Shown here: positions 1 to 24,849 of the stretch, in pieces
Layout of the letters: every line of letters starts with the position of its first letter
Numbering within the stretch: the stretch's first letter is position 1
NCBI RefSeq assembly: GCF_001886715.1
Contig: NZ_CP018082.1
Location: forward strand, 1,612,001-1,676,000
Direction of reading: 5' to 3'
DNA: 64,000 bases
Source of the DNA: Nocardia mangyaensis
GTDB lineage: Bacteria; Actinomycetota; Actinomycetes; Mycobacteriales; Mycobacteriaceae
Made by a program: the position numbers and the translations under genes
Notes under the pieces: model-generated
Database searches by the model: none
The model's input: only the letters and a program-made list of their open reading frames with translations
What the model was told of the DNA's origin: nothing

Positions 1-46
1 TGCTACTGCGACGAGTTCTAACCCATCCACAAGAAGGAGATTGAAA

Positions 47-4327: not shown

Positions 4328-4414
4328 CCGATCGCTACCGGGACAGGCAGTGAGCCTGCCCCGGTAGCCCAACCATCTCCGAAACACGCTCCACACGAAC
4401 GAAGGACACACACC

Positions 4415-4858
4415 ATGACCAACGCTTTGACCGACCTGGACCAGATCAACGCCGAGCTGATGACCGGCAGCGCCCGCAACCCGTTCGGCCGCGACGTCGC
4501 CCCCGGCGACGGAGTCAGCGGCGAGATCATCGCCGTGATCCGCCGCCACCGCCACAACAGCCAGGGCCAGCCGCTGTTCTGGGTCAACCGCCGCCCGCAG
4601 GTCGCCGCGACCGGTGACCCGGTGATCGACTCGCAGCTGATCCTCGAGACCGACGACCGCGCCGACGACGAAGACGACGGCCTGGCAGCGGTCACCATGG
4701 ACCGTGACGTCCAGCGCGCGATCCGCGCCGGCGTGCGCCGGGCCCGCGCCAACGGCGTCGCGATCGGCGGACGGCTCGACGGCCTACTGTTCGTCGGCCC
4801 GGCCGAGGGCGGCAACGGCCGCGTCTACGACCTGGGCAGCTACACCCCGCCCGCGTAA
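4415..4858 (+). CDS. possible OB-fold single-strand DNA-binding-like protein
   Basis: A 147-residue protein with its own ribosome binding site (GAAGGA), 87 bases after the coupled cluster. The order GVSGEIIAV, then QPLFWVNRRPQVA, then LILETD with an acidic patch, then RAIRAGVRRARANGVAIGG and LDGLLFVG resembles a family in actinophages and plasmids with a beta-rich, OB-like layout (a turn rich in LFW, a DDED patch, an AI..AV..A helix and a closing strand). I infer a role in binding single-stranded DNA during replication or transfer, at low confidence. It is the last gene before the repeat-rich region. Confidence 0.65.
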   Translation: MTNALTDLDQINAELMTGSARNPFGRDVAPGDGVSGEIIAVIRRHRHNSQGQPLFWVNRRPQVAATGDPVIDSQLILETDDRADDEDDGLAAVTMDRDVQRAIRAGVRRARANGVAIGGRLDGLLFVGPAEGGNGRVYDLGSYTPPA

Positions 4859-4953
4859 GTCCGCCGCGCAGCACCACCAGGAGCCCCTGGCCCGTGATCG
4901 GGTCGGGGGCTCCGTCGCGTTCCGGCCCGCCCGGCTCGGGATGTACTGCCGCA

Positions 4954-4966
4954 CGAGCTTCGCTCG
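4954..4966. repeat. small hairpin with GCTTCGC centre
   Basis: Perfect palindrome CGAGC-TTC-GCTCG, with centre GCTTCGC at 4957-4963. It fits the GCTXCGC central motif described for telomere palindromes of rhodococcal linear replicons. It is the first of three such hairpins in this non-coding region. Confidence 0.6.
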
Positions 4967-5052
4967 CTTGCCTCCAAGGATCAGCCTGCCGCGGTTCGGC
5001 GGTTGGGCTTGTTCCCCAACTGTTCCTCTGGCCCTTCCTCCGAAGGCTTCAC

Positions 5053-5147
5053 GAGCACGGACGGTGGGTTGCTCAAGGGTGGCCGTAGGCCATCGGCGCA
5101 GCCGACGCGACGAAGGAGCGCCCTTGAACTGCCCGCCGTCCGTGCTC
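5053..5147. repeat. imperfect 27-bp inverted repeat with inner hairpins
   Basis: The arms at 5053-5079 and 5121-5147 both begin GAGCACGGACGG when read inwards and end TCAAGGG, with about 4-5 mismatches. Two small hairpins sit between them (TGGCC-GTA-GGCCA and TCGGC-GCA-GCCGA). The CAAGGG/CCCTTG ends also occur in the inverted repeat at 5782-5832, so this may be a repeated structural unit. Confidence 0.6.
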
Positions 5148-5246
5148 ACGCTGTCACGCCGAGGAAGGGCGATCTTCTCGTGGTTTCGGCGGTCCGGTAT
5201 TCGATCTTGGTGTGGATCGAAGGCGCGAAAACCGCGCGACTATCTG

Positions 5247-5283
5247 GCGAATATCTAGCACCTGTGGGGTGCTAGATATTCGC
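5247..5283. repeat. perfect 16-bp hairpin
   Basis: The left arm GCGAATATCTAGCACC (5247-5262) is the exact reverse complement of 5268-5283, with a 5-nt loop. The arms are AT-rich for this genome and no T-run follows, so a protein-binding or origin-type site is as likely as a terminator. Confidence 0.7.
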
Positions 5284-5286
5284 GGT

Positions 5287-5471
5287 CTCAACCACCACCC
5301 CATCCATCCCGTGAGCTGCGGTTAAGGGCGGGATTTCTGCTCACTCCCCACCCCCACCCAGTTCGACATCTCATCACCCACTGCGTGTCCAATGAGATGT
5401 CGAACTGGGTGGGGGTGGGGAGCAATCAGAAATCAAAGAACAAGTGAGGGATGGATGGGGTGGTGGTTGAG
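5287..5471. repeat. 185-bp nested palindrome
   Basis: Three pairs of perfect arms share one centre: outer 24 bp (5287-5310 with 5448-5471), middle 8 bp GATTTCTG (5332-5339 with 5427-5434) and inner 31 bp (5344-5374 with 5392-5422) around a 17-nt loop. The inner and outer arms are strongly strand-biased, C/A-rich on one side and G/T-rich on the other. A single strand could fold into one long interrupted hairpin. Confidence 0.85.
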
Positions 5472-5691
5472 AGAAAAAGAAGTGGTTGGGTTGGGAGTAC
5501 ATCGGCGGGTTTGCGAGTGGGTTGCGTTGGGAGTCGGTGACGGTGGTGCTGTCAGGTGCGCGAGGCTGCGGTTTAGGGCCGCGGCTGTGGTGGCAGGTGG
5601 TGGAGTAGCGCGTGTACCGGTGGGTGCGTGGTGCGCTGGCTGGTGAGGGTGGTTCCTCGAGGTGACGCGAGTCAGGTCCCGGAGCGGGTAT

Positions 5692-5708
5692 CGCGAGCTA
5701 CGCTCGCG
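5692..5708. repeat. hairpin with GCTACGC centre
   Basis: Perfect palindrome CGCGAGC-TAC-GCTCGCG with centre GCTACGC at 5697-5703. It is the second of the three GCTXCGC-type hairpins. Confidence 0.6.
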
Positions 5709-5724
5709 CGGATCTTCGCGGAGC

Positions 5725-5889
5725 GTGGTGTTTGTCCCTCTCGGCGTGGCCTGATCTGAGGGCTATCACCTCGGCAACGAGCATCAAGGGCGCCTGCGGC
5801 GTCGCTACGCGATGGCTGCGCCACCCTTGACGCCCGCCGCCGTGGTGATCGTGTGGCCCTCAGGCCACACCGAGAGGGACAAACACCAC
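5725..5889. repeat. long imperfect inverted repeat, 46-nt arms
   Basis: The left arm 5725-5770 and right arm 5844-5889 are near-perfect reverse complements; both begin GTGGTGTTTGTCCCTCTCGG when read inwards, with a few mismatches towards the middle. The arms enclose a second inverted repeat at 5782-5832. The right arm also contains its own small palindrome (GTGTGGCC-CTCA-GGCCACAC). Confidence 0.75.
5782..5832. repeat. inner inverted repeat with GCTACGC centre
   Basis: Imperfect 24-nt arms (5782-5805 and 5809-5832) share TCAAGGG near their outer ends. The centre is TCGC-TAC-GCGA (5802-5812), the third GCTXCGC hairpin. It lies inside the 46-nt inverted repeat. Confidence 0.55.
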
Positions 5890-6183
5890 ACAGACCAGCC
5901 GCCGCGCAGACCGGAGATCACGGCCGATGGCCGTGGAAGGGCATTCCGCTCGCCGCGGGGGCAGGCCGCCCAAAAGGGGTGGGCTACGAAACGCCTGTTT
6001 GGGTCTGTCGGCCGCGGCCTTCCCCTCAGCAATCTTTGAGCAGCGAAGCCAGTTATCAGCTGGCGATTCTCCGACCGTCATTGAGAGAAGTTCGCGAATT
6101 CGCCGCGACTACCGCGCACGCCGATCTGTTTATTTGTGCTGGTCAGCTCTGTAGTGGAGCGTACCGAAACCTCTAGGCGGAGA

Positions 6184-7614
6184 TCATGGTTGGCTCTCGG
6201 ACGCATTCCAGTCGATACGGACATACTGCGGTTTGAAGCCCGGTCCACCTCGAGCCGGGAGGAGCGTCACGCGGACGTCCAGTGCTTGAAGAACCGCAAT
6301 TCGCTGCGTGACAGCAAGACTGTCCCAAACTTCGCGCGTATCACCAGCGGTGATTTCCGAAACCAGCGTGCTGTCCAATCCTGCTGTGGCTCGGCTCGCG
6401 TCTGCCTCGGCGGCTGACAGTTCGGGCTTCAGCTTTGCGGTGATTCGTGCGAGCTGCTGGGCGTCGATTTCACCGTCCGCGAAGGCATCTGCGGCGCTGT
6501 CCAGCCGGGATCGGATCGCATCGACACGGATGCGAGCATCACGACCCGCGGTGTCGTCGCTGCTCACGAAGAGGTCTCGCGCGTCCTCGCGTGCCAGTCG
6601 GGCGCAGATCACCGAGGCGACGAATTCGTCGACCCACTCGACTCGTCGTCCGACACAGCCCTGCGGCGTGTCGCAGCAATACAAGATGTGCGGGCCCCCT
6701 CGATTGACGACACGCAGGATCGACCCGCACTTTCCGCAGCGGCCGATACCGAAACTGAGGAGGTGTCGGCGGGCGCCTCCCTTGGTTGTCACCCGGGTCG
6801 GGTCGGTCAGTAGCGCTGTCACGCGGTCGTGGGCATCTCGGTCGACGATCGCGGGCCATGCTGCCGGATACTCCTGTCCGCGGTGCGTCCGGATCGCGAC
6901 ATTCATCTTGCGCAGAGCCAGCTTGCGCACTGTCGACGACATCCACTTTCCCTTCCCCGAGGGTGTGGGGGTGCCTGAGGCGTTCAGTTCTCGGACAACG
7001 TGATTCATCGACAGACCGGCCAAGAGGTCGGCCACGATGCCCCTGACCACGTCGGCGGCGATGGGATCTTCGACGTCTTCCCAGCTGATCATGTTGCCTG
7101 CGGAATCTCGTTGGTAGACACGCGTCCATCCGTATGCGTGTGAACCATTCGCCCGGCCTTCCTCTGCACGCTGCTTGGCAGCGCGGGCAATTCGTTCGCT
7201 TTTGATCTCGGACTCCGCAGAGTCGAACTCGCCAAGGATGCCCGCGTACATACGTCCGGCTGCCGAGGTCAGGTCGATATCGGACCCCTTGACCAGGGCG
7301 ATTCCGACTCTGGCCTTCGCGAGGACCTCGATCGCGTGCGCTCGCTCCTTCCGGTTACGCCAGAGCCTTGACAGGCCGTAGGCGACGATGAAATCGAACT
7401 CGCCACGAACTGCGGCTTCGAGCATCGCGTCGTAGTTCTGCCGAAATCGAGCGCCCAGCACTGAGACATCGTTGTCGATATAGGTACCGACAACCTCCCA
7501 CCCCCGGGCCTTGGCGAGCTGCTCAGAGTCCTCTCGCTGGCGCGTCACGCCCCGCTCAGTGCTGCGCGGGTCCTCCGATATGCGGCAGTAGATCGCGGCT
7601 TTGATGATGGCCAT
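6184..7614 (-). CDS. large serine recombinase (integrase)
   Basis: A 476-residue site-specific recombinase that cuts DNA through a serine nucleophile and integrates or excises the element. The N-terminal resolvase fold opens with AAIYCRISED (catalytic Ser13) and continues with the R-x-x-x-D/N..L region and YGLSRLWRNRKE. The recombinase domain follows (ARAAKQRAEEGRANGSHAYGW), then a zinc ribbon (CGKCGS and, about 20 residues on, CC and GC) and a charged helical C-terminal part. The length is normal for the family, so it looks intact. Its start codon is about 30 bases from the broken MBL gene, placing the attachment site just upstream of the gene. No excisionase is seen nearby. Confidence 0.93.
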   Translation of the reverse strand: MAIIKAAIYCRISEDPRSTERGVTRQREDSEQLAKARGWEVVGTYIDNDVSVLGARFRQNYDAMLEAAVRGEFDFIVAYGLSRLWRNRKERAHAIEVLAKARVGIALVKGSDIDLTSAAGRMYAGILGEFDSAESEIKSERIARAAKQRAEEGRANGSHAYGWTRVYQRDSAGNMISWEDVEDPIAADVVRGIVADLLAGLSMNHVVRELNASGTPTPSGKGKWMSSTVRKLALRKMNVAIRTHRGQEYPAAWPAIVDRDAHDRVTALLTDPTRVTTKGGARRHLLSFGIGRCGKCGSILRVVNRGGPHILYCCDTPQGCVGRRVEWVDEFVASVICARLAREDARDLFVSSDDTAGRDARIRVDAIRSRLDSAADAFADGEIDAQQLARITAKLKPELSAAEADASRATAGLDSTLVSEITAGDTREVWDSLAVTQRIAVLQALDVRVTLLPARGGPGFKPQYVRIDWNASESQP

Positions 7615-7650
7615 GGCTCATCTTATCCGCTATCGACCGTTGCTATTCCC
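7615..7650. other. probable attachment site (attR) junction
   Basis: Reading on the plus strand, homology to MBL-fold hydrolases begins at the codons for LFPGG (about 7643-7654); everything to the left is element sequence. The crossover must lie within this short interval between the integrase start and the hydrolase homology. The core cannot be fixed without the other junction or an empty site. Confidence 0.6.
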
Positions 7651-7828
7651 CGGCGGCGTCGGCAAAACCCACAACCCCGCCGACTTCGACACCCTCCTCA
7701 CCGACGTCACCACCAAACTCTTCGACCGCTACCCCGACGACACCGTCGTCCACCCCGGCCACGGCGACGACACCACCCTCGGCACCGACCGCCCGAACCT
7801 GCCCGAGTGGCGCGAACGCGGCTGGTGA
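7643..7828 (+). pseudogene. 3' fragment of MBL-fold metallo-hydrolase gene
   Basis: About 61 codons encode the C-terminal end of a glyoxalase II-like hydrolase: LFPGGVGKTHNPADFDTLL, then DDTVVHPGHGDDTTLG and LPEWRERGW. The metal-ligand PGHGD motif is present, but the N-terminal half with the HxHxDH motif is missing because the element interrupts the gene. The fragment ends at a normal TGA. The intact paralogue-like protein at 37612-38238 shows the same ending ([16 protein letters not shown]). The 5' part should lie beyond the left edge of the window. Confidence 0.85.
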
Positions 7829-7966
7829 GTCCCAGCGAGCCTCATCCAGCTCGGCGCACGTCATCTTCCACGCGTGGACGCTCTCGTCGAGGAGTTCACC
7901 GGACCGGAACCGGCCGGTGACCGCTGGCATCATCGGGCGTAGGGGCGACCTGGCAGACTGATCAGG

Positions 7967-8659
7967 ATGAAGTCGGGTTTCTCGCGAACGGCAGCACCTG
8001 CGGCGAATTCCCGGCATCCGCGCGGGCTCGTTTCCTCGATCTCGGTGTGGATGGCCCGGTTGATCGTCGGCGCTGTGCTGATGGGGTTGATTCTGGTCGC
8101 CGGAACCGCGGTCCGGGTGTGGCAGGTGGCCCGGATCGACAACTACACCCCCGCCGACGCGATCGTGGTACTCGGCGCGGCCCAGTACTCCGGGACGCCG
8201 TCGTCGGTGTTCGAGGCCAGGCTGTACCAGGCGGGCCGGCTCTATGAGGCCGGGGTCGCGCCGATGGTGATCACCGTCGGCGGCAAACAGGAGGGCGACC
8301 TCTACACCGAGGCCGCCTCGGGCAAGCGCTACCTCGAGAACGCGGGCGTGCCCAGCGATCACATCCTCGCCGTGGAAACCGGCTCCGACACCCTGCGCAG
8401 CATCGAAGCCGTCGCCGACGCCATGGGCGCGCGCGGGATGTCATCGGCCGTACTCGTCTCCGATCCGTGGCATTCACTGCGGACCCGGACGATGGCACGC
8501 GACGCCGGTCTGCGCGCGTGGACCGCACCCACCCGCACCGGTCCGGCCGTCTACACCAGGGAATCGCAGTTCCACGGCATCGCCCGCGAAACCGGCGCGC
8601 TGCTGTGGTATCAGCTCACCCACTTCTCGGCAGATTTCTCTTACACGGCGGGACAGTGA
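7967..8659 (+). CDS. YdcF/SanA-like DUF218 membrane protein
   Basis: A 230-residue protein with one N-terminal membrane helix (about 29-50) followed by a DUF218 domain. Motifs are ADAIVVLGAAQYSGTPSS, FEARLYQAGRLYEAG, ITVGGKQEGD, EAASGKRYLENAGVP and VLVSDPWHSLR, matching the YdcF/ElyC/SanA fold. Family members act at the cell envelope, though their substrates are mostly unknown. The ATG at 7967 lies 6 bases before dgt's leader, and the stop is 6 bases before the dgt ATG, so the two genes are probably co-transcribed. The upstream 138 bases hold nothing recognisable. Confidence 0.85.
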   Translation: MKSGFSRTAAPAANSRHPRGLVSSISVWMARLIVGAVLMGLILVAGTAVRVWQVARIDNYTPADAIVVLGAAQYSGTPSSVFEARLYQAGRLYEAGVAPMVITVGGKQEGDLYTEAASGKRYLENAGVPSDHILAVETGSDTLRSIEAVADAMGARGMSSAVLVSDPWHSLRTRTMARDAGLRAWTAPTRTGPAVYTRESQFHGIARETGALLWYQLTHFSADFSYTAGQ

Positions 8660-8665
8660 GATCCG

Positions 8666-9919
8666 ATGACCGACAGCTACACCCCGCACGACCGGGAACG
8701 CATGGTCCACGAACCGGGCAAGACCGCGTGGCCCGGCGCCGCGGACCGCGGCCACCGCAGTGAGTTCTCCCGCGACCGCGCCCGCGTCCTGCACTCCGCC
8801 GCCCTGCGCCGCCTCGCCGACAAGACCCAGGTCATGGGCCCGCGCGAGGGCGACACCCCGCGCACCCGCCTCACTCATTCACTCGAGGTCGCCCAGATCG
8901 GGCGCAGCATCGCCGACGGTGTCGGCGCCGACCCCGACCTGGTCGACCTGGCCGGGCTCGCCCACGACATCGGCCACCCGCCCTACGGCCACAACGGTGA
9001 ACGCGCGCTCGACGAATTCGCCGACGAGTACGGCGGTTTCGAGGGCAACGCGCAGAACCTGCGCATCCTGACCCGCCTCGAACCCAAGGTCCTCGACGCG
9101 GCGGGGGAGAGCGCCGGGCTCAACATCACTCGCGCCGCCCTCGACGCCACCATCAAATACCCGTGGGGCAGAAGCGGTTCCGGCACCAAGTTCGGCGCCT
9201 ACGACGACGACCTCGAACGCCTGGCCTGGGTCCGCAAGGACGCCCCCGAGCGCGTCCAGAGCCTGGAATGCCAGATCATGGACTGGTCCGACGACGTCGC
9301 CTACTCCGTGCACGACGTAGAAGACGGCGTGATCGTCGGCCGCATCGACCTGCGCGCCCTGGCCGACCCCGCCGAGCAAGCCGCACTCGCCGAACAGGGC
9401 CACGGCCAGCACCCCGACCAGTCGATCGAGGCGCTCGCCGCCGCCGCCCAGCGGCTGTCCGAACTCGACGTGGTAGCCGATGCCGTGGACTACGACGGCA
9501 CCTTCGCGTCCTCGGTCGCGTTGAAGCGGCTCACCAGCGAGCTGGTCGGCCGCTTCGCGACGGCGGCCATCGCGGCCACCCACGAGCGCTACGGCCCCGG
9601 CCCGCTCATCCGCTACGAGGCCAACCTGGTCGTGCCGCCGATCGTGGCCGCCGAGGTCGCCGTGCTCAAGACCGTCGCCCTGCGCTACGTGCGCTCCGAC
9701 CGCGGCCACCTGGCCCGCCAGCAGACCCAGCGCGAGCGCGTGCAGGCCGTCGCCGACCGCCTGCTCACCACCGCGCCGGCTCACCTCGACGACCAGATGC
9801 TGCCCTGGTGGAACGCCGCCACCGACGACCCCGCCCGCGTGCGCGTGGTGATCGACCAGATCGCCTCCTACACCGAGAGCCGCTTCGAGCGCGTCGCCGC
9901 CTCGCTGGACTGCCGCTGA
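8666..9919 (+). CDS. dgt: deoxyguanosinetriphosphate triphosphohydrolase-like protein
   Basis: A 417-residue HD-domain phosphohydrolase that hydrolyses dGTP or other dNTPs to the nucleoside and triphosphate. It shows the family order [19 protein letters not shown], then [13 protein letters not shown], then the metal-binding HD pair in [15 protein letters not shown] (His100-Asp101), and later [22 protein letters not shown]. The length is as expected for actinobacterial Dgt. It sits directly before dnaG, an arrangement seen widely in actinobacteria, linking dNTP control to replication. Confidence 0.95.
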
Positions 9920-9942
9920 GCCCGACCGACTAGACTTCCCAC

Positions 9943-11874
9943 GTGGCCGGACGAATCCCAGATCGCGATATCGCGGCGATCCGTGACCGGGTCCGGATCG
10001 AAGACGTCGTCGGTGAGTACGTGGCGCTCAAGCGCGCGGGCGCCGACTCCATCAAAGGCCTGTGCCCGTTCCACGACGAGAAGTCGCCGTCGTTCCACGT
10101 GCGCCCCAACCACGGCCTGTTCCACTGCTTCGGGTGCGGTGAGGGCGGGGACGTCTACAAGTTCCTGCAGCAGATCGAGCACATCGGTTTCGTCGAGGCC
10201 GTCGAGCAGATGGCCGACCGCATCGGTTACCAGATCAACTACGAGGGCGGTGGCACCTCGGTCCAGCGCGACCGCGGCACCCGCTCCCGTCTGGTCGCCG
10301 CCAATGCCGCCGCGCACGAGTTCTACGTCGCGCAACTGCGCGAACCCGAGGCCGAGGCGGCCCGCGCCTACCTGACCGAGCGCAACTTCGACGCCGCCGC
10401 CGCCCAGCAGTTCGGCTGTGGCTACGCGCCCGGCGGCTGGGACGTGCTCACCAAGCACCTGCTCCGCAAGGGCTTCGAATTCAAGGAGCTGGAAGCGGCC
10501 GGACTGTCCAAGCAGGGCAAACGCGGCCCGATCGACCGGTTCCATCGCCGCCTGCTCTGGCCGATCCGCAACCTGGGCGGCGAGGTGATCGGCTTCGGCG
10601 CGCGCAAGCTCTTCGACGACGACACCATGCCCGGCAAGTACGTGAACACGCCGGAGACGTTGCTGTACAAGAAGTCTCAGGTGCTGTTCGGCCTCGACCA
10701 CGCCAAGCGCGACATCGCCAAGGGCCACCAGGCCGTCGTCGTCGAGGGCTACACCGACGTCATGGCGATGCACCTGGCCGGGGTCAAGACCGCCGTCGCC
10801 TCCTGCGGCACCGCCTTCGGCGAGGAACACCTCCAGGTGCTGCGCAGGCTGCTGATGGACGACAACTTCTGGCGCGGCGAGATCATCTACACCTTCGACG
10901 GCGACGCCGCCGGGCAAGCCGCCGCGCTCAAGGCCTTCAGCGGCGATCAGCGCCTGGCCGGCCAGACCTACATCGCCGTCGCCCCCGACGGCCAAGACCC
11001 GTGCGAGCTCCGTCAGCACTCCGGTGACGCCGCCGTACGCGACCTGGTTGCGCGACGAACCCCGCTCTACGAGTTCGTGATTCGCGGTCTGCTCGCCGAA
11101 CACAATCTCGACGATGTCGAGGGCCGGGTCGAGGCCTTGCGGCGCACGGTGCCCGTGGTCGCGCAGATCAAGGACAACGCCACCCGCAAGGGCTACGCGA
11201 CCAAACTGGCGGGCTGGGTCGGCTGGGACGACATCCAGCTCGTCGTGCGTCGCGTCGGCGAGGAAGCGCGCAAGAACCGCACCGGCACGAACGGCAAGCC
11301 CACGCCCGGCGGGAAGGTCGGTGCCGCACCGGTTTCCGCGCCTCGCGCCGACGAGGGTTCCTCGGTGCGCCCCGCCCCGAACGATCCGGTGCTGCTGGCT
11401 CAGCGTCAAACCCTCAGCGCCGCACTGCAATACCCCGGCATCGCCGGGGTGGCCTTCGACGCCATCGACACCGCCGCCTTCACTCACCCCGCCTACGTGG
11501 CCGTGCGGATCATGATCGCCCAGGCGGGCGGCACGGCCTCCGGTCTCGGCGGCGCCGAGTGGGTGGCCGCCGTCGCCGACCACACCGACGACCTGATGAT
11601 CCGCGCCCTGGTCTCCGAGCTGGCCAACGAGCAGCTGCCGGTGCGCTCCCAGAACGACACCCCGCGCTTCATCACCGCCATCCTCGCCCGCACCCAGGAA
11701 GCCTGGGTCGGCCGTCAGATCGCCGAGCTGAAATCCAAGCTCCAGCGCCTCTCGGCCAGCGAGGAGCCCGACACCTACATGACCCTGTTCGGCGACCTGG
11801 TGGCGCTCGAGCAGTACCGCAAGAGCCTCGCCGCGCAGGCCATGGGCAACGAGGGCTACGCGGCGGGCGCCTGA
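9943..11874 (+). CDS. dnaG: DNA primase
   Basis: A 643-residue primase that makes RNA primers at the replication fork. The CHC2 zinc finger is at Cys41, His44, Cys62 and Cys65 (LCPFHDEKSPSF and LFHCFGCGEGGDV). The core carries FGARKL and NTPETLLYKKS, and the TOPRIM metal-binding motifs are VVVEGYTDVMAMH and YTFDGDAAGQ. A linker at about 440-480 leads to a C-terminal helical domain for DnaB binding. The start is a GTG at 9943, 23 bases after dgt. The gene is complete and typical. Confidence 0.97.
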   Translation: MAGRIPDRDIAAIRDRVRIEDVVGEYVALKRAGADSIKGLCPFHDEKSPSFHVRPNHGLFHCFGCGEGGDVYKFLQQIEHIGFVEAVEQMADRIGYQINYEGGGTSVQRDRGTRSRLVAANAAAHEFYVAQLREPEAEAARAYLTERNFDAAAAQQFGCGYAPGGWDVLTKHLLRKGFEFKELEAAGLSKQGKRGPIDRFHRRLLWPIRNLGGEVIGFGARKLFDDDTMPGKYVNTPETLLYKKSQVLFGLDHAKRDIAKGHQAVVVEGYTDVMAMHLAGVKTAVASCGTAFGEEHLQVLRRLLMDDNFWRGEIIYTFDGDAAGQAAALKAFSGDQRLAGQTYIAVAPDGQDPCELRQHSGDAAVRDLVARRTPLYEFVIRGLLAEHNLDDVEGRVEALRRTVPVVAQIKDNATRKGYATKLAGWVGWDDIQLVVRRVGEEARKNRTGTNGKPTPGGKVGAAPVSAPRADEGSSVRPAPNDPVLLAQRQTLSAALQYPGIAGVAFDAIDTAAFTHPAYVAVRIMIAQAGGTASGLGGAEWVAAVADHTDDLMIRALVSELANEQLPVRSQNDTPRFITAILARTQEAWVGRQIAELKSKLQRLSASEEPDTYMTLFGDLVALEQYRKSLAAQAMGNEGYAAGA

Positions 11875-12331: not shown

Positions 12332-12404
12332 TCCCCTATAGCTCAATTGGCAGAGCAGCCGACTGTTAATCGGCAGGTTTCTGGTTCGAGTCCAGATGGG
12401 GGAG
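12332..12404 (+). tRNA. tRNA-Asn (anticodon GTT)
   Basis: The cloverleaf folds by eye. The acceptor stem is TCCCCTA with TGGGGGA (one G-T pair), the anticodon stem GCCGA/TCGGC has loop CTGTTAA (GTT at 12365-12367), and the T arm is CTGG-TTCGAGT-CCAG. The discriminator is G and the CCA end is not encoded. A terminator follows at 12414. Confidence 0.95.
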
Positions 12405-12413
12405 CGCATTAAG

Positions 12414-15461: not shown

Positions 15462-15833
15462 CTAATCCTGGGTCCGTGGCGTTCTCGGCCAGGCCACTAT
15501 CTGGGTCGGCCTGATCTCGACGCGGTCGGCATCGTCGAACGCCGCCACAATGGATTCCAGGTGTGTTTCGAACACGGCGAGCAGATCGTTGTTGCTGATG
15601 TTTCCCATCGCTACGACCAGAAGGCGGCGGGGTTGGCCGTGTAGTTGGTGCGAGATCCGGAAGTCGGCGTCCTTCGACACCACCACGCGGTCCTCAGCGT
15701 CGGCTTCCTTGGTGACCTGGTCGTCGGTGGTGCGGTTTCCTGCGGGCAACTGCGTTGTGTGCCGCGTCGTGTCCGGCGTCGCCTAGGAACCGGGCCAGTC
15801 GTGCCGGGAGTTGCGCGTCGACCAGGACTTCAC
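15462..15833 (-). pseudogene. DUF5615 (PIN-like, Mut7-C type) toxin, frameshifted
   Basis: Two minus-strand frames together encode one DUF5615-type toxin. The first gives LVDAQLPARLARFLGDAGHDAAH and the second LPAGNRTTDDQVTKEA, then DRVVVSKDADFRISH, with the conserved SKDADF. The frame changes near 15757-15760, consistent with two lost bases in a GHDAVHTTQLPAGN-type sequence. A second fault lies at the start: the GTG overlapping the antitoxin stop (15833) is out of frame by one base with the LVDAQ reading, as if one T of a TTC codon had been lost. The toxin is therefore inactive unless these are sequencing errors. Confidence 0.75.
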
Positions 15834-16063
15834 GCGGCGTTGACAGTGACGACGGTGTGTCCGCCTGCCGCGAGAGCACCGAACTCCAGCGCGGCGAGGA
15901 GGTCGTCGGATTCCAGGTCCGGGTAGTCGTCGAGGATCTCTTCGCGGCTCATGCCCGAAGCCATCATCTCGAGGATGTTCTGCACCGGCATCCGAAGTCC
16001 GCGCACTACCGGCTGACCATGGCAGATCTGCGGATCCGAGGTGATGCGATCGAGGCGCGACAT
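15830..16063 (-). CDS. DUF433 antitoxin-like protein
   Basis: A 77-residue protein (MSRLDRITSDPQICHGQPV, then RMPVQNILEMMASGMSREEI and LDDYPDLESDDLLAALEFG) of the DUF433 family, the usual antitoxin partner of DUF5615 toxins. The start at 16063 gives the family's normal length; an upstream in-frame ATG at 16072 is also possible. It is intact, while its toxin is frameshifted. The gene order antitoxin-toxin with a GTGA overlap is typical of the module. It would act as DNA-binding autorepressor and toxin neutraliser. Confidence 0.8.
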   Translation of the reverse strand: MSRLDRITSDPQICHGQPVVRGLRMPVQNILEMMASGMSREEILDDYPDLESDDLLAALEFGALAAGGHTVVTVNAA

Positions 16064-16297
16064 AGGCACCATCGTAGCCTTGACCATGAGATCTCTGCTA
16101 GCGATCATCGCTGACAGGGGGTTCTGTGCCCGTCGTGATCGGGGCGCCACCCGTGACTACAACGACATCCGTACGCGAGGCCACACGCGTGGTGCCGCGA
16201 GACGGACACGCCGCCGCGGCGAAGTGCCTCCCTAGGACCTGGCCGGGTGTGGATCAGACCTAGCGTCCGCGCGTTGAAACAGTGAAGGTTCGATCTA

Positions 16298-17483
16298 GTG
16301 CCTCGTCAGGCAACGTTCGTTAGGTAATCCGGATGCCGGATCTTGGATCCGACGGCGAAGTCGCGGATCGGTCCGGCGTGCTGGTTGCGCCAGCGGATGT
16401 AGTTGCCGATCGCGGTGTCTTGCTCGTCGTGGCTGCGGTGGTCGGTGCCGTTGAGCGCGAAATACCGCAGCGCGGCGAACTCGCACTCGATCCGATTCAA
16501 CCAGGACGAATAGGCAGGCACGAACACCAACTCGACCGCGTTGGCCACGCACCATTCCCGCACCTCACGGCGTTTGTGCACCGAGTAGTTGTCCAGAATC
16601 AAGTACAGCTTGTCGCCGGGCCAGCGGGCCCGCAGCGACGTGAGGAACGCCAGGAACTCGGTCCAGCGCTTCCGGTCACGGATCCGGTAATAGAGCAGGC
16701 CCGTCGCCAGATCGAGGCCGCCGAACATGTGCCGCACCCCCTGGGTGCGGTTGTAGGGCGCGCGCAACCGATTCGGGCGTCGCCGCGGAAACCAGCCACG
16801 TCCAGCACGCGGTTGCAGGTTCAGCGGCCCGAACTCATCGACACAGACCACCCGCCCGTCAGCGGGTGGATTGTCGTAGAGCTCGAGCACCCGTGCCATC
16901 TTCGCCGCGAAATCGGGGTCGTTGCTGGCCTTCCAGGTTTTGGTGGCCTGCCACGACACCCCGCCGGCCTTCAAGATCTGACGCAGAGTCTCGCGGCTGA
17001 TATCAACAATCCCGTTGAGCACCAACACATCCCACAGCTTGGACAGACTCCACGTCGAAAACGGCCAACCCAGGCTCAGGGGGCAGCACCGGGCGATCTG
17101 ACAGATCCGTTCACGCATCTTCGGATCAGTCTTGCTCGGCCTGCCCCCGCTCCATTTTGGGTCCAGAGCACCAAACCCATGCTCGTTGAAGTCGTGAATC
17201 ACTTGCCGCACATAGGGTTCCGAGACCTGCATCAACTTCGCGATCAGCCCGACAGGCTGCCGCTGCGCCGACGCCATCACCACGATCGCCCGCCTCGCTC
17301 TGACCGGCACCTTGCTGGTCTTGGCGATCCGCGCCACCCGCCGCCCCTCTTCCGGGAACAACGGCCGCACAAACACATCCGGCTTCCGGCCCACGACACC
17401 ACCTCCACCGGCAGCATCACCCGACCCGCCGGCCAGAGCAAGCCGACACCCGATTACCGCAGCAACCTATCCAGACAAGGCAC
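16298..17483. mobile_element. IS630-family insertion sequence
   Basis: The element is 1186 bp with terminal inverted repeats of about 20 bp (left GTGCCTCGTCAGGCAACGTT; right, read inwards, GTGCCTTGTCTGGATAGGTT) matching at about 14-15 of 20 positions. It is flanked by TA at 16296-16297 and 17484-17485, the target duplication of IS630/Tc1-mariner elements. It carries one transposase gene with an intact frame, so it may still be active. Confidence 0.88.
16306..17394 (-). CDS. IS630-family transposase
   Basis: A 362-residue DDE transposase. The N-terminal helix-turn-helix region (ARRAIVVMASAQRQPVGLIA, then MQVSEPYVRQVIHDFNEHG) binds the ends, followed by a winged-helix part (SRETLRQILKAGGVSWQATK). 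The catalytic acidic residues are in VVCVDEFGPL, LILDNYSVHK and YSSWLNRIECEFA, the D-D-E order of IS630. It starts at a GTG at 17394. It nearly fills its element and has no internal stop or shift. Confidence 0.93.
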   Translation of the reverse strand: MGRKPDVFVRPLFPEEGRRVARIAKTSKVPVRARRAIVVMASAQRQPVGLIAKLMQVSEPYVRQVIHDFNEHGFGALDPKWSGGRPSKTDPKMRERICQIARCCPLSLGWPFSTWSLSKLWDVLVLNGIVDISRETLRQILKAGGVSWQATKTWKASNDPDFAAKMARVLELYDNPPADGRVVCVDEFGPLNLQPRAGRGWFPRRRPNRLRAPYNRTQGVRHMFGGLDLATGLLYYRIRDRKRWTEFLAFLTSLRARWPGDKLYLILDNYSVHKRREVREWCVANAVELVFVPAYSSWLNRIECEFAALRYFALNGTDHRSHDEQDTAIGNYIRWRNQHAGPIRDFAVGSKIRHPDYLTNVA

Positions 17484-18648: not shown

Positions 18649-18843
18649 TCAGAGGGCGCCCAGGCATGCCATTACGACCAGGACGAAGGCCGAAGTTCCG
18701 GCGAAGCCAATGCCGCCATCACGGATCGTTTCGGTGATAGGCCCGCCACCGAAGTGGGTGAGGAGACCGTTGACGATGCCGACGATGATGCCGAGCAACA
18801 GTGCGATGGCGATCATCAGCGCTTTGCGCAGAATGGGATGCAT
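18649..18843 (-). CDS. 64-residue two-helix membrane protein
   Basis: It starts at the ATG at 18843 with AGGAG seven to eight bases upstream; the longer upstream frame has no support. Two hydrophobic helices (about residues 8-28, LMIAIALLLGIIVGIVNGLL, and 45-63, GFAGTSAFVLVVMACLG) are separated by a short Gly/Thr-rich loop. There is no signal peptide or catalytic motif. It is divergent from the CHAT-STAND-TPR gene across 184 bp. It could be a membrane partner or effector of that protein, but this rests on position only. Confidence 0.75.
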   Translation of the reverse strand: MHPILRKALMIAIALLLGIIVGIVNGLLTHFGGGPITETIRDGGIGFAGTSAFVLVVMACLGAL

Positions 18844-18982
18844 GACTGGATCTCCTGGGTTGGTTTTGAGCTGGGATTGATATCCAGCACAGCCCGCGCC
18901 ATGACGTTCCGGCGAGCGCCGAGATTCGCTAAAGTCACTGAATGCGCATGTCAGGGAGCGATTTTGGGGCATCCAACTTCTC

Positions 18983-19018
18983 ACGAGCCGCGGCGAGTCG
19001 CCGCGACTCGCGGCTCGT
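18983..19018. promoter_or_regulatory. strong hairpin just before the CHAT-STAND-TPR start
   Basis: Arms at 18983-19000 and 19004-19018 pair over 15 bp (ACGAGCC...) with a 3-base bulge and a CCG loop, ending 9 bases before the ATG at 19028. No Shine-Dalgarno is visible, so the hairpin may control translation or serve as an operator for the divergent pair. Confidence 0.55.
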
Positions 19019-19027
19019 CGAAACGCG

Positions 19028-22000
19028 ATGATGGCCGAGGACGGTGCGCGAGAGAAGTTCTTCACCGAACTGGATCGCCTGCGATCGGCGGCGCGGCCAC
19101 CGACCGCGAGGCGCCCACCTACGGTGCAGACGATCGCCCGCGAAACCAAGGTGTCGGAGGGGACGCTACGTAACTGGTTTCCCACCGATCCTGGTCAACA
19201 TCGCACGGTGTCACGCAACGACGACCAGCTGATCAGGGTGGTGGAGTACTTTCTGCGCACTGCGGGACGTCTGGCCACACATGCGGGCATGGACCGCCGT
19301 ACCCGAGAGGACTGGCTGGTGTTGCGTGACGCGGCCGCCGCCACCGAACTCTCACTGTCGGGGTCCGGACGCCACGACAGCGTCGCTACGCGTATCTCCG
19401 GGTTCGGTCCGCGTTCATCGTCCGGCGCGGTGGAGGTGGTGCTGACTGTGACCGACAATCGGGTGTGGTTGCACGGCACAGACGTCGACGTGACCGCCGA
19501 GCACACCGGCGTGCGTCCGGGGTTGGTGAATGCGATCGCCGAGATCGGCAATGCACGGGCGCGGCTGCGGCGCTCGGCATTTGCACGAGCCGAGCTGGCG
19601 GGCTTGGCCTCGGAAACTGGCTCCTATTCGGTGTCGCTGCGGCGTGCGGGAAAGCTGGTTGCCGACTCCTTTCTTCCGTCGCCGGTGTCGGTGGCACTCA
19701 CGCAGATACTCGCCGACGCCGTCGCCGCGCACCTGCCGGTCAGGCTCGGGATCGAGACAGGACCGTTCGCTGGATTGCCGTGGGAGACAATGCCCGATCC
19801 CCTTACCCAACGGCCGCTCGTACTGCACCCGCTGGTCACGGTCTACCGGCATATCCCCGCCCAGCCAGTTCGTACAATCCCTGGTCCCTTGCGGATTCTG
19901 GTGGCGATCGCGGCCACCGACAGGGGCAGCGGGCCGGGGTTGGATCACGAGCGGGAACTGCGCAATGTGCTATCTGCAGTGCGGGGTGCTCGCGAGCGCG
20001 ACGCGGAGGTCCGCATCGTCGAATTCGCCACCACCGTCGCAATCAGGGCCGAACTGGCTCGGTCTCCCACGCACATCTTGCACCTGTCTAGCCACGGCAA
20101 GACTGGATGCCTGCTGCTCGAGAACGACAACGGCACGGCCCGCGAGGTAGACGCAGAAACATTTGTCGCGGAAGCGATCCCACCCGGGTCGATGCCTCCG
20201 GTGATCAGTCTGGCCTCCAGTCATACAGACGCCGACACAGCCGCACCGTCGTTCGCCGCCGCGCTGATCGCCCACGGTGCCAGCGCGGTGATCGGCACCG
20301 AAACCTCAGTGACCGATCGTTATGCCACCGCATTGTTCGCCCGCGTCTACCAGGAACTCACCCAGAATCAGTTCCCGGATGTAGTCGCTGCGGTCGCCGA
20401 CGCACGCCGTACCATCCACCAACAATTGTCCACCTCGACCGACCCCACCGACGCCCTGCTGGCGAGCATGGACGAGTGGAATGTCGTGACCGTACTTGCG
20501 GGCAACGGCGCTGTCAGTGTGTACGACCCGGCAGTATCCGAATCGGTTCCGCGCCTTGACACCGTGAGGGTGCCGGGATTGCTGACTCGTGGGGTCGGGG
20601 AGTTCGTCGGACGACGCCACGAACAACGTAGGCTTCCCGCTGAACTGGCAGGAAACCGATACGCAGGCATCGTGCTGCACGGCATCGGAGGCGTCGGTAA
20701 GACAGCCCTGGCCGCCCATATCGTTCGCCGTCAACGGTTCGCCGTAGTGATCGCGGTGGTCACCGGCGAGACCACCATCGACGGCGTCTTGTCAGTGGTC
20801 GCCGACACCATACGCAGGCATTGCCTGATCGACGACGGTGCCTCGCGGGACCCCCGCGTGCTGCGGGCGGCCAACCTTGCCTCGGCCACCACCGAGTCGT
20901 GGCAGAACCGTTTGGATGCGCTGCGAGCATTCGTTTTCGACCAACTGCCGGTGCTGGTGGTGCTGGACAACTTCGACGACAACCTCACCAGCACAAGCAC
21001 ACTGTCCGATCCACAGTTGGCGGCGCTGCTGTCGGCGTGGCTTGCCGATCCGGGAGATAGCCGACTGATCGTCACCTCCCGCTACCCATTCGTACTCCCC
21101 GACAACGCTCACCATCGACTGTTGTCACATCAGATCGGGCCCTTATCGCGGGCGGAAACGTTCAAGCTGATCTGGGCCTTGCCCGCGCTGGACCGGCTCA
21201 CCGCCGACGAGCTGGATCGCGTCTGGCGGCTCGTTGGCGGCCATCCGCGGAGCTTGGAATACCTCGATGCCCTGCTCAACAACCAGATCGGCCGCTACCA
21301 CGAGATCACCCATCGGCTCGAGAACGCCATCACGCACAATCCCGTGGCACGACCCGCGCTCACCGCACATACTCTCGACACCGCTCTCGCAACCATCGTC
21401 GCACTCATCGCCGATGACATCCTGCTCGACCAGCTACTCGGCCGGCTTACCCCTGCCGCGAATCGGTTGCTGATCGGTGCTTCGGTCTATCGAGAGCCGG
21501 TTGAGAACAACGCGTTGCTCTACCAGATCGGCACCCACGACCCCAGCGCCGCCCGGCAACCGGACTACCGGGCACTGCGCCACACGATCACCGCCGCCAC
21601 CGCCCAACACCACACCGATCTCACGCCGACCGCATTCGACCTCGACGCGCTTCCACAACACATATCCGACGAGATTGCGCCCGCGGTAATCGCTGACGAC
21701 ACCGAGCCGCATCCACCGATCTCGACCGATCTCGACATCGATGAGCTTGTCCATGAGTTGACCTCCCACAACCTGCTCACCATCGATCCGGAGAGCGGGC
21801 GGGTATTCGTGCATCGCTCGACCTTCTCGGCACTCGAGAGGTCCCTCGCGCACGATCAACGTGACGACATCGTCGCCGCGCACCGTCGCGCGGCCGGGTA
21901 CTGGGTCTGGCGCGTGGCGGCCTGGCCACAGGATCGTGACGCCGACCTGCACGACCGACTGGAAGCCCGCTTCCATTACAGGCAAGCCTCCAACATCGCC

Positions 22001-23206
22001 GCAGCACACGACCTCACCCTGGCCGTCTGCGACCGCCTGCACACCATCGGAGCGTGGGATCACGAAATCACCCTCATCCACGACACCCTCCGCCATCTAC
22101 CAGCCGAAGCACCTGAACGCGCTCACTGGCTACGCCAGCTCGGCATGATCGCTCAACAGCGAGGCGACTACGAGGAAGCCGAACGCCGATACCAGCGCGC
22201 CCTCACCATCGGAGAAGAACAAGGCAACCGCGCAGGCGTCGCCGCCGGCCACCACCAGCTCGGCATGATCGCCCAACTGCGAGGCGACTACGAAGAGGCC
22301 GAACGCCGATACCAGCGCGCCCTCACCATCGGAGAAGAACAAGGCAACCGCGCAGGCGTCGCCGCCGGCCACCACCAGCTCGGCATGATCGCCCAACTGC
22401 GAGGCGACTACGAGGAAGCAGAACACCGATACCAGCGCTCGCTCGCGGCAAAGAAGAAACTCGGTGACCGCGCCGGAATAGCCACGAGCTACGGGCAACT
22501 CGGTGCGCTGGCCCAAGAGCAAGGCGACTTCACCGAAGCCGAACACCGATACCGTCGTGCCCTGACCATCAAACACGAACTCGGTGACCGCGCCGGAATA
22601 GCCACGAGCTACGGGCAACTCGGTGCGCTGGCCCAAGAGCAAGGCGACTTCACCGAAGCTGAACAGCAATGCCAGCGTGCGCTGACCATCAAACACGAAC
22701 TCGGTGACCGCGTCGGAATAGCCGCCGGTTACGGTCAGCTCGGTGTGCTGGCTCAGTTGCGGGGTGACTACACCGAAGCCGAATACCAATACCGGCGCGC
22801 TCTCGCTCTCGCCGGAGAACTCGGCTACCGCGCCGGAATAGCCGGCATCTACCACCAGTTCGGTGCGCTGGCTCAGTTGCGGGGTGACTACACCGAAGCC
22901 GAATACCAATACCGGCGCGCTCTCACCCTGGCCGAAGCACTCGGCTACCGTGCCGGAATAGCCACCACGATCACTTCCCTCGGATCACTCGCGCTTCAGC
23001 AGGATCACCTGTTTGAAGCAGTGCAGTGGCAAATCCAAGCCTGGCGCCTACACACCGAAATGGCGTTAGGGGCCGCCGCGGTACTCAACCTGGATGCGCT
23101 TCGACAACTGCGAGGCGGGATCGGTGTGGAACTCATCCTTGAAGTAGCACACCAGATCCTCGACCCGGCCCAGGCAAGAGCTCTTGAGGATCTGCTCGAC
23201 CAATAG
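19028..23206 (+). CDS. HTH-CHAT-STAND NTPase-TPR protein
   Basis: A 1392-residue multidomain protein. Residues about 1-105 are helical with a helix-turn-helix-like stretch (TIARETKVSEGTLRNWF). Residues about 120-495 match a CHAT caspase-like domain with HILHLSSHG (His356). The expected catalytic Cys position reads LASSHT (Ser398). An NB-ARC/STAND ATPase follows: Walker A GIGGVGKTA at 552-560, Walker B VLVVLDNFDD (Asp647) and sensor RLIVTSRYPF. Residues 1037-1316 are seven 40-residue TPR units. Such proteins are ATP-driven sensors in signalling, programmed cell death or phage defence; that role is inferred. The start is ATG 19028 or 19031. Confidence 0.85.
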   Translation: MMAEDGAREKFFTELDRLRSAARPPTARRPPTVQTIARETKVSEGTLRNWFPTDPGQHRTVSRNDDQLIRVVEYFLRTAGRLATHAGMDRRTREDWLVLRDAAAATELSLSGSGRHDSVATRISGFGPRSSSGAVEVVLTVTDNRVWLHGTDVDVTAEHTGVRPGLVNAIAEIGNARARLRRSAFARAELAGLASETGSYSVSLRRAGKLVADSFLPSPVSVALTQILADAVAAHLPVRLGIETGPFAGLPWETMPDPLTQRPLVLHPLVTVYRHIPAQPVRTIPGPLRILVAIAATDRGSGPGLDHERELRNVLSAVRGARERDAEVRIVEFATTVAIRAELARSPTHILHLSSHGKTGCLLLENDNGTAREVDAETFVAEAIPPGSMPPVISLASSHTDADTAAPSFAAALIAHGASAVIGTETSVTDRYATALFARVYQELTQNQFPDVVAAVADARRTIHQQLSTSTDPTDALLASMDEWNVVTVLAGNGAVSVYDPAVSESVPRLDTVRVPGLLTRGVGEFVGRRHEQRRLPAELAGNRYAGIVLHGIGGVGKTALAAHIVRRQRFAVVIAVVTGETTIDGVLSVVADTIRRHCLIDDGASRDPRVLRAANLASATTESWQNRLDALRAFVFDQLPVLVVLDNFDDNLTSTSTLSDPQLAALLSAWLADPGDSRLIVTSRYPFVLPDNAHHRLLSHQIGPLSRAETFKLIWALPALDRLTADELDRVWRLVGGHPRSLEYLDALLNNQIGRYHEITHRLENAITHNPVARPALTAHTLDTALATIVALIADDILLDQLLGRLTPAANRLLIGASVYREPVENNALLYQIGTHDPSAARQPDYRALRHTITAATAQHHTDLTPTAFDLDALPQHISDEIAPAVIADDTEPHPPISTDLDIDELVHELTSHNLLTIDPESGRVFVHRSTFSALERSLAHDQRDDIVAAHRRAAGYWVWRVAAWPQDRDADLHDRLEARFHYRQASNIAAAHDLTLAVCDRLHTIGAWDHEITLIHDTLRHLPAEAPERAHWLRQLGMIAQQRGDYEEAERRYQRALTIGEEQGNRAGVAAGHHQLGMIAQLRGDYEEAERRYQRALTIGEEQGNRAGVAAGHHQLGMIAQLRGDYEEAEHRYQRSLAAKKKLGDRAGIATSYGQLGALAQEQGDFTEAEHRYRRALTIKHELGDRAGIATSYGQLGALAQEQGDFTEAEQQCQRALTIKHELGDRVGIAAGYGQLGVLAQLRGDYTEAEYQYRRALALAGELGYRAGIAGIYHQFGALAQLRGDYTEAEYQYRRALTLAEALGYRAGIATTITSLGSLALQQDHLFEAVQWQIQAWRLHTEMALGAAAVLNLDALRQLRGGIGVELILEVAHQILDPAQARALEDLLDQ
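22136..22975 (+). repeat. seven tandem 120-bp units encoding TPRs
   Basis: Units begin at 22136, 22256, 22376, 22496, 22616, 22736 and 22856, each coding 40 residues starting QLG or QFG and containing GDY/F-x-EAE. Units 1 and 2 differ at very few bases, as do 4 and 5, and the first halves of 6 and 7, showing recent duplication or gene conversion. Confidence 0.9.
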
Positions 23207-23317: not shown

Positions 23318-24115
23318 TCATGGCTTGCGTGCGACAGCGCCGTAGGACGAAATCGATTGCTCGATGCCCCCCGAGCCCGCCTTGTTGCGCCATTCGGTGA
23401 TCGGACCGAAGCCCGGCTCGACAAACTCGAAACCGTCGAAGACCGCGCGGATCGCCTCCTGGGTGCGCGGAACATACGGCACACCTCCGGACTTCGTGTA
23501 CTCCTCACACAGGGTCACATATGCCTGACTGTCGGGAGTTCCGTCCCACAGCACCAGATAGCTGCCCGAAGGAGTCGCATCCATGACGGTGCGCACGATG
23601 TGCAGCATGTCCTCATAGCTGCGGGCATGACCGAGGACACCCATGAACATCACTCCGACCGGCTGGCTGAAATTCAAGATGTTGCGCGCGTCGGCAATGA
23701 CTCGGTCCGGATCATGGAAATCGCAATTGAAGTAGGCGGTAACACCCTCGTCGGTGGTACTGGTCAGCAAGGCACGCGAGTGAATGAGCGCAAGCGGATC
23801 GTTGTCGATGTAGACGACCTTGGACTCCGATGCCACCGACTGGGCGACCTCATGGGTGTTCTGCATGGTGGGAAGGCCGGCGCCAACGTCGAGAAACTGA
23901 CGGATCCCAACCTCACCGGCCAGGTATCGCACCACCCGAACGAGGAACTGGCGTGACTGAACAGACACGGTCGCGATGTCTGGGTCGATCTTCAGACTCG
24001 CCTCTCCGACAACACGATCCACCTCATAGAAGTCCTTACCGCCCATCCAGAAGTTCCAGATCCGCGCAGAAGACGGAATATCAGTGCGGATCATCGCTTC
24101 GTACTCACCGGTCAT
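23318..24115 (-). CDS. DUF574-type S-adenosylmethionine methyltransferase
   Basis: A 265-residue protein of the actinobacterial DUF574 methyltransferase family. It opens with the typical SSARIWNFWMGGKDFYEVDR signature, then the SAM-binding GxGxG-like FLDVGAGLPTMQNTHEV, VVYIDNDPLAL, and FMGVLGHARSYEDM. ATG 24115 is chosen because it has AGGAG upstream and gives the family's usual N-terminus; the longer frame to 24259 is rejected. Family members are numerous in actinomycetes and few have known substrates. It lies within the 8.2-kb insert, convergent with the CHAT gene. Confidence 0.88.
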   Translation of the reverse strand: MTGEYEAMIRTDIPSSARIWNFWMGGKDFYEVDRVVGEASLKIDPDIATVSVQSRQFLVRVVRYLAGEVGIRQFLDVGAGLPTMQNTHEVAQSVASESKVVYIDNDPLALIHSRALLTSTTDEGVTAYFNCDFHDPDRVIADARNILNFSQPVGVMFMGVLGHARSYEDMLHIVRTVMDATPSGSYLVLWDGTPDSQAYVTLCEEYTKSGGVPYVPRTQEAIRAVFDGFEFVEPGFGPITEWRNKAGSGGIEQSISSYGAVARKP

Positions 24116-24849
24116 GAGGGTAATCTCCTGGTTCAGTGCCGCCGGACAACAGTGCGTGGATGGCCGGTGGCGGCGGGCCACCGATGTCCCTCGTGGCCAC
24201 CGCTGAACAGACTCCTCGGTTACGCGCATAGGAGACCGAAGAGCGTGCTGTGCATTCACAAGGACAAGTCCGCGTGTCTCCGAGTGCGTTTGGCTCGATG
24301 TTCAGTGGCCAACCTTAACCCGGTTTTCACTCGATTGCCATGTGTCGTGATCGGTTGTCCTGCAATATGTTCCACTCATGGCCTACGAGCAGTCGAAACA
24401 TCCTGTGCCCAACGAGTTACGTGCGAGGATCGCCCCTGCTACACAGCAAATCGCGCATCTGGCCGAGGGTGGCTCCGCGTCGGCCGAGGGCGAGAGACGT
24501 TCGTGCCGACCGGCAGGCGTGCCTGGCAGACGCTGCCCCATCGTTCTGCGGCACCCGTGCCGATCGCCCACCGGAGACTCACTTACACGGTCCATGCGTT
24601 GAATTCGCCCCACACACCGCCGGGATCCCGACGCTTGGCGACCAACTACCGGGAGTGACACCGGCGGCGAGTCGCGCGACATTCATCTGTCCCCTTAACC
24701 GAAACATTGTCGGCTACGGAATACTGACTGTGAACGAAATCAAGCGATTCGTGAGTAGCGTGACTAATTTGTATCCACCTAGCGCAAGTCGCCAGGTTGG
24801 CTATCGAACGGACCACACCGTAACAATTTACACAAGAAGGGAACTTGAA
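24116..24849. other. 734-bp divergent intergenic region
   Basis: No gene is supported. The part nearest the LLM gene (about 24690-24850) is clearly richer in A and T than the rest and probably holds its promoter, but I cannot pick a convincing -35/-10 pair. Confidence 0.4.

Follow-up and report, generated by a model that had tools for sequence, protein, structure and literature searches.

Relation to described systems

Several described bacterial systems resemble parts of the locus analysed here, which consists of a gene for a 1392-residue protein with a helix-turn-helix (HTH), a CHAT domain, a STAND-type NTPase and a tetratricopeptide repeat (TPR) array, and a divergent gene for a predicted 64-residue membrane protein. 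The locus lies in a stretch of 64,000 nucleotides from Nocardia mangyaensis (NZ_CP018082.1, positions 1,612,001 to 1,676,000), referred to in full as the window. Judged from sequence, the HTH head of the large protein, a set of DNA sites and the small gene recur as one unit, while the remainder of the large protein, the receptor body, changes. No description of this head and small-gene pair was found in the open-licence papers searched.

STAND_TPR of PADLOC (PDLC01173), an ATPase fused to an Xre-type HTH and TPRs and associated with cas1-less I-E systems of Streptomyces, likewise joins HTH, NTPase and repeats in one protein, and two of the paired proteins (those of L058 and L082; loci are numbered L and genomes G) match it from within the HTH onward. 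However, the window protein did not match this model at E ≤ 0.1 and has a CHAT domain in its body, and the description of the model mentions neither a divergent two-helix gene nor a heptamer operator. Regulators of the SARP-LAL/MalT type, such as PimR, also combine a DNA-binding head with an NTPase and repeats, and the operator of PimR comprises three heptamers about one helical turn apart (PMC5930380). The window has the corresponding arrangement, with three tandem heptamers in a 10-bp phase (a putative operator). It departs from PimR (PMC5930380) in that this phase is 10 bp instead of 11 bp and the heptamer, CGASTCG, is itself a near-palindrome, and from SARP-LAL regulators in that no SARP domain was recognised in the head among the 25 of 29 Pfam families listed, and a small membrane protein would be its target.

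In the EACC1-caspase systems, which are prevalent in actinobacteria, a small membrane protein accompanies a large protein with caspase-like and variable domains; it has one membrane helix with alpha+beta extensions and is encoded 5' of the caspase gene (PMC7159879). The window locus falls outside this group, as its small protein has two predicted helices, its genes are divergent and its constant part is an HTH. In TRADD-N and ternary conflict proteins, an HTH is exchanged with peptidases and other effectors, and for the TRADD-N proteins the authors read it as a transcriptional response (PMC8195603, PMC7159879). An HTH has been noted before among the effectors of bacterial immune-type receptors, but no cognate operator or target gene is named for it in the available parts of these papers. 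Unlike those systems, the window has no TRADD-N, MoxR or VMAP match listed for the nine proteins scanned (Pfam). XRE-DUF397 loci join an HTH gene to a dedicated small gene and are discussed as toxin-antitoxin pairs (PMC6262351, PMC10364602, PMC7159879), whereas the partner in the window is a predicted membrane protein and not DUF397 (no Pfam match at E ≤ 0.1), and the HTH is fused to a receptor ATPase. Finally, in Caulobacter the NLR-like lypABC is held down by a separate HTH repressor, CdxB (PMC13236601); in the window locus, by contrast, the repressor-like part would be the receptor itself.

What the present locus adds is that head, putative operator and candidate target are kept together over 16 loci and seven body types. 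Because the three sit together, what such receptors switch on becomes testable, and a single short promoter, a domain of 110 residues and a protein of 64 would be enough for this.

The small gene recurs with the HTH head and not with the receptor body

The two genes and the conserved part of the larger one are positioned as follows, with 184 bp between the divergent start codons.

18652..18843, minus strand: 64-aa protein with two predicted membrane helices (residues 3-31 and 36-61), from a family of 61-65 aa.
19028..23206, plus strand: HTH-CHAT-NTPase-TPR protein of 1392 aa (open reading frame (ORF) and domain matches).
19028..19366, plus strand: N-terminal HTH head, residues 1-113, the part conserved along with the small gene.

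The original prediction was that the small protein could be a partner or effector of the large one, and it named as evidence to the contrary homologues of the large gene that mostly lack the small one, together with a lack of enrichment in defence islands. A search of 98 Nocardia genomes with residues 1-1000 of the window protein returned six head-only relatives (in G061, G033, G056 (two), G095 and G026), for which the alignment ends at residue 105-122. All six have the small gene nearby: five are divergent and adjacent, and in the sixth both genes share a strand and the small gene follows the HTH segment at a distance of ~2.5 kb. A separate search with the 64-aa protein matched near all six. 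Relatives of the body behaved differently. Those in G062, G093 and G085 are 48-71% identical but align only from about residue 121-133 onward, and in none of the 10 body relatives fetched did the retrieved DNA contain the small gene.

Profiles of the small protein (A1) and of the head (A2) were then run on 150 Nocardia genomes and the listed matches were compared by coordinates. Among the matches listed, 74 head matches reached E ≤ 1e-6. The small gene was within 3 kb of 16 of the 17 strong head matches (E ≤ 1e-20) and of 0/57 weaker ones, 10 of which were fetched. Fifteen of these 16 pairs are divergent and close, and one is codirectional. As A2 was built from 14 of the 17 strong-head loci, the fair test of pairing is the single-sequence search (6/6) together with the three strong heads outside the training set, two of which (G099 and G139) are paired and one of which (G057) is not. 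Head and small-protein distances also correlate (Mantel r 0.59, p 0.0001). Taken together, the small gene very probably pairs with the HTH head and not with the CHAT-NTPase-TPR body. The two genes thus proved to be a conserved pair, although pairing with the large gene holds only for its head; homologues without the small gene were what the survey found for the body, and not for the head.

The bodies joined to the head are diverse. BLAST of the 400 residues after the head sorted the 16 paired proteins into seven body groups, namely CHAT (the window), GPSKAGKT-type P-loop with TPR (4), NB-ARC/AAA with TPR (6), NPHP3_N-type NTPase (2) and three singles, including L157 (weak WD40-like matches) and L081 (no recognised NTPase). 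The body therefore differs from that of the window in 15 of the 16 pairs. Tandem repeats are visible in the DNA of the repeat arrays in 9/16.

Conversely, relatives of the window body can carry something else in the position of the head. Pfam Trypsin_2 matched the N-terminus of L075-L077 among six bodies scanned (E 3e-4 to 1e-6; only L076 above the cutoff), and L078 has a trypsin-like domain by sequence, with the H, D, S triad visible in all four. L079, L080 and L085 have neither the HTH head nor a trypsin-like domain. In L075-L078, the trypsin-like domain sits in place of the window's HTH head, and after either one the shared sequence restarts at the same motif (window residues 133-147, LTVTDNRVW). 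The head appears to occupy the effector slot of the receptor, considering that a trypsin-like domain fills that place and that the sequence then resumes at the same motif.

Putative operator sites between the genes

The intergenic region of the window contains four candidate elements.

18884..18894, unstranded: CCAGCACAGCC, an intergenic element on the side of the small gene; identical in 3/7 close loci, with a similar sequence in others.
18930..18935, plus strand: TAAAGT, which may serve the large gene as a -10 box.
18939..18955, plus strand: TGAATGCGCATGTCAGG, a putative promoter/operator element; identical in 6/7 closest loci and one base off in L057.
18984..19010, plus strand: putative operator of three heptamers CGASTCG with 10-bp spacing, the first copy with one mismatch.

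An unbiased k-mer scan covered the 15 divergent pairs; L064, which has its small gene beyond the large one and in the same orientation, was omitted. The top 7-mer was CGAGTCG/CGACTCG, which is present in 15/15 divergent intergenic regions compared with 0.94 expected. It occurs 34 times in 2,864 bp of intergenic sequence versus 41 times in 130,463 bp of flank. At least two copies are found in 12/15 regions, and the 19 intervals between copies include 11 of 10 bp and 3 of 20 bp. The heptamers are located just upstream of the HTH domain, and the distance from the small gene to the HTH segment is 167-215 bp in all 15 divergent pairs, the window included. L064 has two heptamers upstream of its small gene. 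A triple-site pattern derived from the same loci (at most one mismatch) matched 11 places in the 150 genomes, 10 of them between head and small-gene pairs; the 11th, in G101, lies among overlapping ORFs in a genome without a head match at E ≤ 1e-6.

The heptamer goes with the head, since it also precedes heads that have no small gene (6/11 of those fetched, that is, 6/10 weaker ones and not G057). Such HTH receptor genes with a heptamer just upstream are L170-L174 and L177, of which L170-L172 have three copies with 10- and 11-bp spacing. Differences by codon position are even across the site stretch (166/142/155) versus 54/46/93 in the HTH (three closest loci). As it shows no codon-position bias, the site stretch appears to be conserved as DNA and not as protein. 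The heptamers are probably the operator of the head.

Domains of the large protein

The body of the large protein contains the following domains.

19757..20434, plus strand: CHAT domain, residues 244-469, with His356 retained and Ser398 in the Cys position.
20600..21166, plus strand: NTPase domain of STAND type, residues 525-713; the Walker A motif, GIGGVGKT, spans 552-559.
22128..22963, plus strand: TPR array, encoded by seven tandem repeats of 120 bp; repeats one and two share 97% identity.

The CHAT assignment (PF12770, residues 244-469) is above threshold (E 6.6e-12, 45.9 bits versus a Pfam cutoff of 24), in line with the original prediction, which had read the architecture as HTH-CHAT-STAND-TPR. 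Residues 525-713 match AAA_16, NACHT and NB-ARC at E 3e-7 to 3e-3, all below the Pfam cutoffs (31.4, 21.2 and 17.2 bits, respectively); in the body relatives L075 and L076, AAA_16 is above its cutoff. TPRs match at E 2.5e-46 (Pfam). The window protein thus has the build of a STAND receptor, a P-loop NTPase with Walker A followed by TPR sensor repeats, and its architecture is that of NTP-dependent conflict receptors, which supports the original prediction. NCBIfam AfsR matches residues 990-1260 only.

The head (residues 1-113) is helix-turn-helix-like, and its AlphaFold2 model has five helices (pLDDT, the predicted local distance difference test score, of 85.8). No Pfam match over residues 1-120 of the large protein is found among the best 25 of 29 families. 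In an alignment of the CHAT domain with 10 relatives, the window protein has His356 of the catalytic pair but Ser398 in the Cys column, where 9/10 relatives have Cys. The CHAT domain of the window is probably not an active cysteine protease; since Ser398 replaces Cys, protease action is unlikely, and the Cys-less domain is probably a structural or regulatory remnant. The body relative L076 has a CHAT domain that has lost His as well as Cys, and its trypsin-like domain is still there.

The small predicted two-helix membrane protein

The 64-aa ORF, which had been predicted to encode a two-helix membrane protein, is a real coding sequence under purifying selection by comparison with its relatives. 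This follows from family members of 61-65 aa (all 22 aligned), low ratios of nonsynonymous to synonymous substitution (dN/dS 0.12-0.53 for the window gene versus six relatives and 0.12-0.67 over 21 pairs) and a confident two-helix model (pLDDT 95.6). The protein has no Pfam, PADLOC or NCBIfam match at E ≤ 0.1.

Among the matches listed, profile A1 placed the small gene at 50 places (53 rows) in 31 of the 150 Nocardia genomes. Outside Nocardia, there was one match (E 5e-5) in 221 family genomes and none in 346 phylum genomes, in searches that scored part of the first candidates, so that weak relatives may be missed. The family appears to occur almost only in Nocardia. Of the 50 places, 42 were fetched and read; eight low-scoring ones were left out (G143:C98, G017:C94:67, G076, G072 twice, G115, G095:C72:10117 and G027:C9).

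The small gene also has a second partner, a type I methylase with a fused specificity domain. In L065, L067, L069, L151 and L160, relatives of the small gene directly precede the gene for such a methylase-specificity protein and share its orientation. This partner was found in 5/5 close loci (including the query's own) and 0/7 distant loci. In L151, an MkoA-like helicase (6452-9301, minus strand) adjoins the small gene and methylase. In L161, ~0.7 kb separate a frame-broken small gene (5587-5774) from a match to Hachiman HmaA that is close to full length (6448-10029). Defence-type genes are therefore present beside some relatives of the small gene (methylase-specificity, Hachiman-type and MkoA-like). 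A divergent subfamily of the small protein (L062, L063, L154, L155 and L156) seems to occupy one conserved chromosomal neighbourhood and has no HTH partner.

A proposed self-repressing switch and its alternatives

We propose that the locus is a self-repressing receptor-ATPase switch in which sensing of a threat by the TPR array would turn on the predicted membrane protein, a reading for which we consider the case evenly poised. Bound to the three heptamers along one face of the DNA, the head would keep expression of both genes low. A trigger would be sensed by the TPR array and the NTPase would assemble (as in the ATP-driven assembly of activated receptors), and this assembly would alter binding by the head, so that the divergent promoter is released or activated. 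The small protein would then act in the membrane by depolarisation, pore formation or growth arrest. The signal could be a phage or another mobile element, which is more weakly inferred. The first step, the head on its heptamers, draws on sequence evidence, and the later steps are what we infer from it. For the separate parts, control of the small gene by the head and its sites is somewhat favoured, a role of the small protein as a membrane effector is favoured by a slight balance, and defence of the cell against phage or mobile elements is possible, though we would not assume it. More doubtful is a broader proposal in which a cartridge (HTH head, phased heptamer operator and tiny membrane killer) would be swapped as a unit onto unrelated NLR-like receptors, a protease-type receptor would then kill or arrest the cell by transcribing its own membrane effector, and the same small-protein family would also have been recruited to methylase-based systems. 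If true, bacterial innate-immune-type receptors could act via transcription of a membrane effector, with outputs exchanged as cassettes.

A number of observations weigh against the switch. The 79 proteins neighbouring the 16 pairs include 21 PADLOC families with one member each, while a comparison set of 126 proteins from 15 hand-picked loci of three genomes includes 61 (among them Cas3, Cas8e and Cas11e); against this hand-picked set, the enrichment in defence islands that the original prediction asked for could not be shown. Against PADLOC-DB 2.0.0 at E ≤ 0.1, the window protein gave only TPR matches and weak matches to C3a156 and BovA, and Foldseek with the head model gave no significant match. 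A sigma-70 scan recognised no promoter. The G057 head has neither the small gene nor a heptamer in the 300 bp upstream, and in L081 the head is joined to a short protein without an NTPase match. Of the 50 places of the small gene, only 16 have a strong head as partner and 5 a methylase, and no partner is common to the 21 other fetched places. As to the sites, seven of the 15 intergenic regions come from close relatives, so the 15 are not independent, and a reversed triple-site control also matched 10 places (8 in one genome), so the triple-site finding is one of location and not of number. In 6/7 close loci, a frame that runs across the 18939-18955 element and the heptamers and on into the HTH is open, and the large protein may have an N-terminal extension through the sites. 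Finally, the heptamers adjoin the large gene, which leaves control of the small gene less secure than autoregulation.

A locus of this build could instead be an ordinary signal-gated regulator that, like MalT or SARP-LAL regulators, senses envelope stress or a metabolite, with the small protein belonging to envelope physiology. An HTH, NTPase and TPRs with three helical-turn-spaced heptamers resemble the PimR operator system (PMC5930380), and that no defence enrichment was shown around the pairs would fit. We nonetheless consider this somewhat unlikely. The small gene is patchy (31/150 genomes), whole bodies are exchanged, including a trypsin-like relative, tandem repeats are visible in the arrays of 9/16 pairs, and methylase-specificity proteins are among the neighbours, all of which suits a conflict system more than housekeeping control. 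Less probable again is a toxin-antitoxin-like pair in which the head would bind and inactivate the small protein and repress the locus, like a type II system with an HTH antitoxin: apart from short ends, the small protein consists almost wholly of membrane helix and offers little cytoplasmic binding surface, in L064 ~2.5 kb separate the small gene from the codirectional HTH segment, and the small gene is also present without the head.

The caspase-like CHAT-NB-ARC-TPR protease of the original prediction, with the small protein as its substrate, partner or effector, has in its favour the presence of a CHAT domain with the small membrane gene adjacent, and the precedent of the EACC1-caspase systems, which join a small membrane protein to a caspase-like one (PMC7159879). 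It is very improbable, given Ser398 in place of Cys and a small gene that follows the head and not the body (0/10 body relatives; 15/16 paired heads on other bodies), and this claim did not survive. That the two genes are chance neighbours on a variable stretch beside a tRNA-Asn gene is hardly credible. The region is indeed variable and carries a transposase gene, but the pair recurs in 15 further loci, with the 167-215 bp spacing and the heptamer in all 15 divergent cases, the window included. Chance neighbourhood was contradicted by 6/6 head-only pairs, 16/17 strong heads and the heptamer in 15/15.

Genomic setting

The module is carried on a variable stretch that begins at a tRNA gene.

12332..12405, plus strand: tRNA-Asn; the variable stretch with the module has its left edge at the last base of this gene.

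The DNA match to relatives ends at 12405, the last base of tRNA-Asn, in 9/10 relatives, and no match is listed beyond it in the fetched stretches (5 to 17 kb past the tRNA). From this left edge to the end of the large gene is 10.8 kb. No right edge was found for the stretch, and a second copy of the tRNA 3' end is absent from the window. The tRNA-Asn 3' end is likely to be an integration site. The predicted 8.2-kb insertion was not confirmed.

An IS630-family transposase gene (16306-17394, minus strand) is located on the same variable stretch. DUF433 and DUF5615 genes (15465-16150, minus strand) make up a toxin-antitoxin-like pair; by eye, the DUF5615 part seems split over two frames. An S-adenosyl methyltransferase gene (Methyltransf_19; 23321-24259, minus strand) adjoins the large gene on the opposite strand. 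Lastly, positions 1-7614 of the window, by ORF reading, include a serine-recombinase-like integrase at 6184-7614 with large ORFs upstream of it, and look like a second integrative element beside genes that read as dgt and dnaG.

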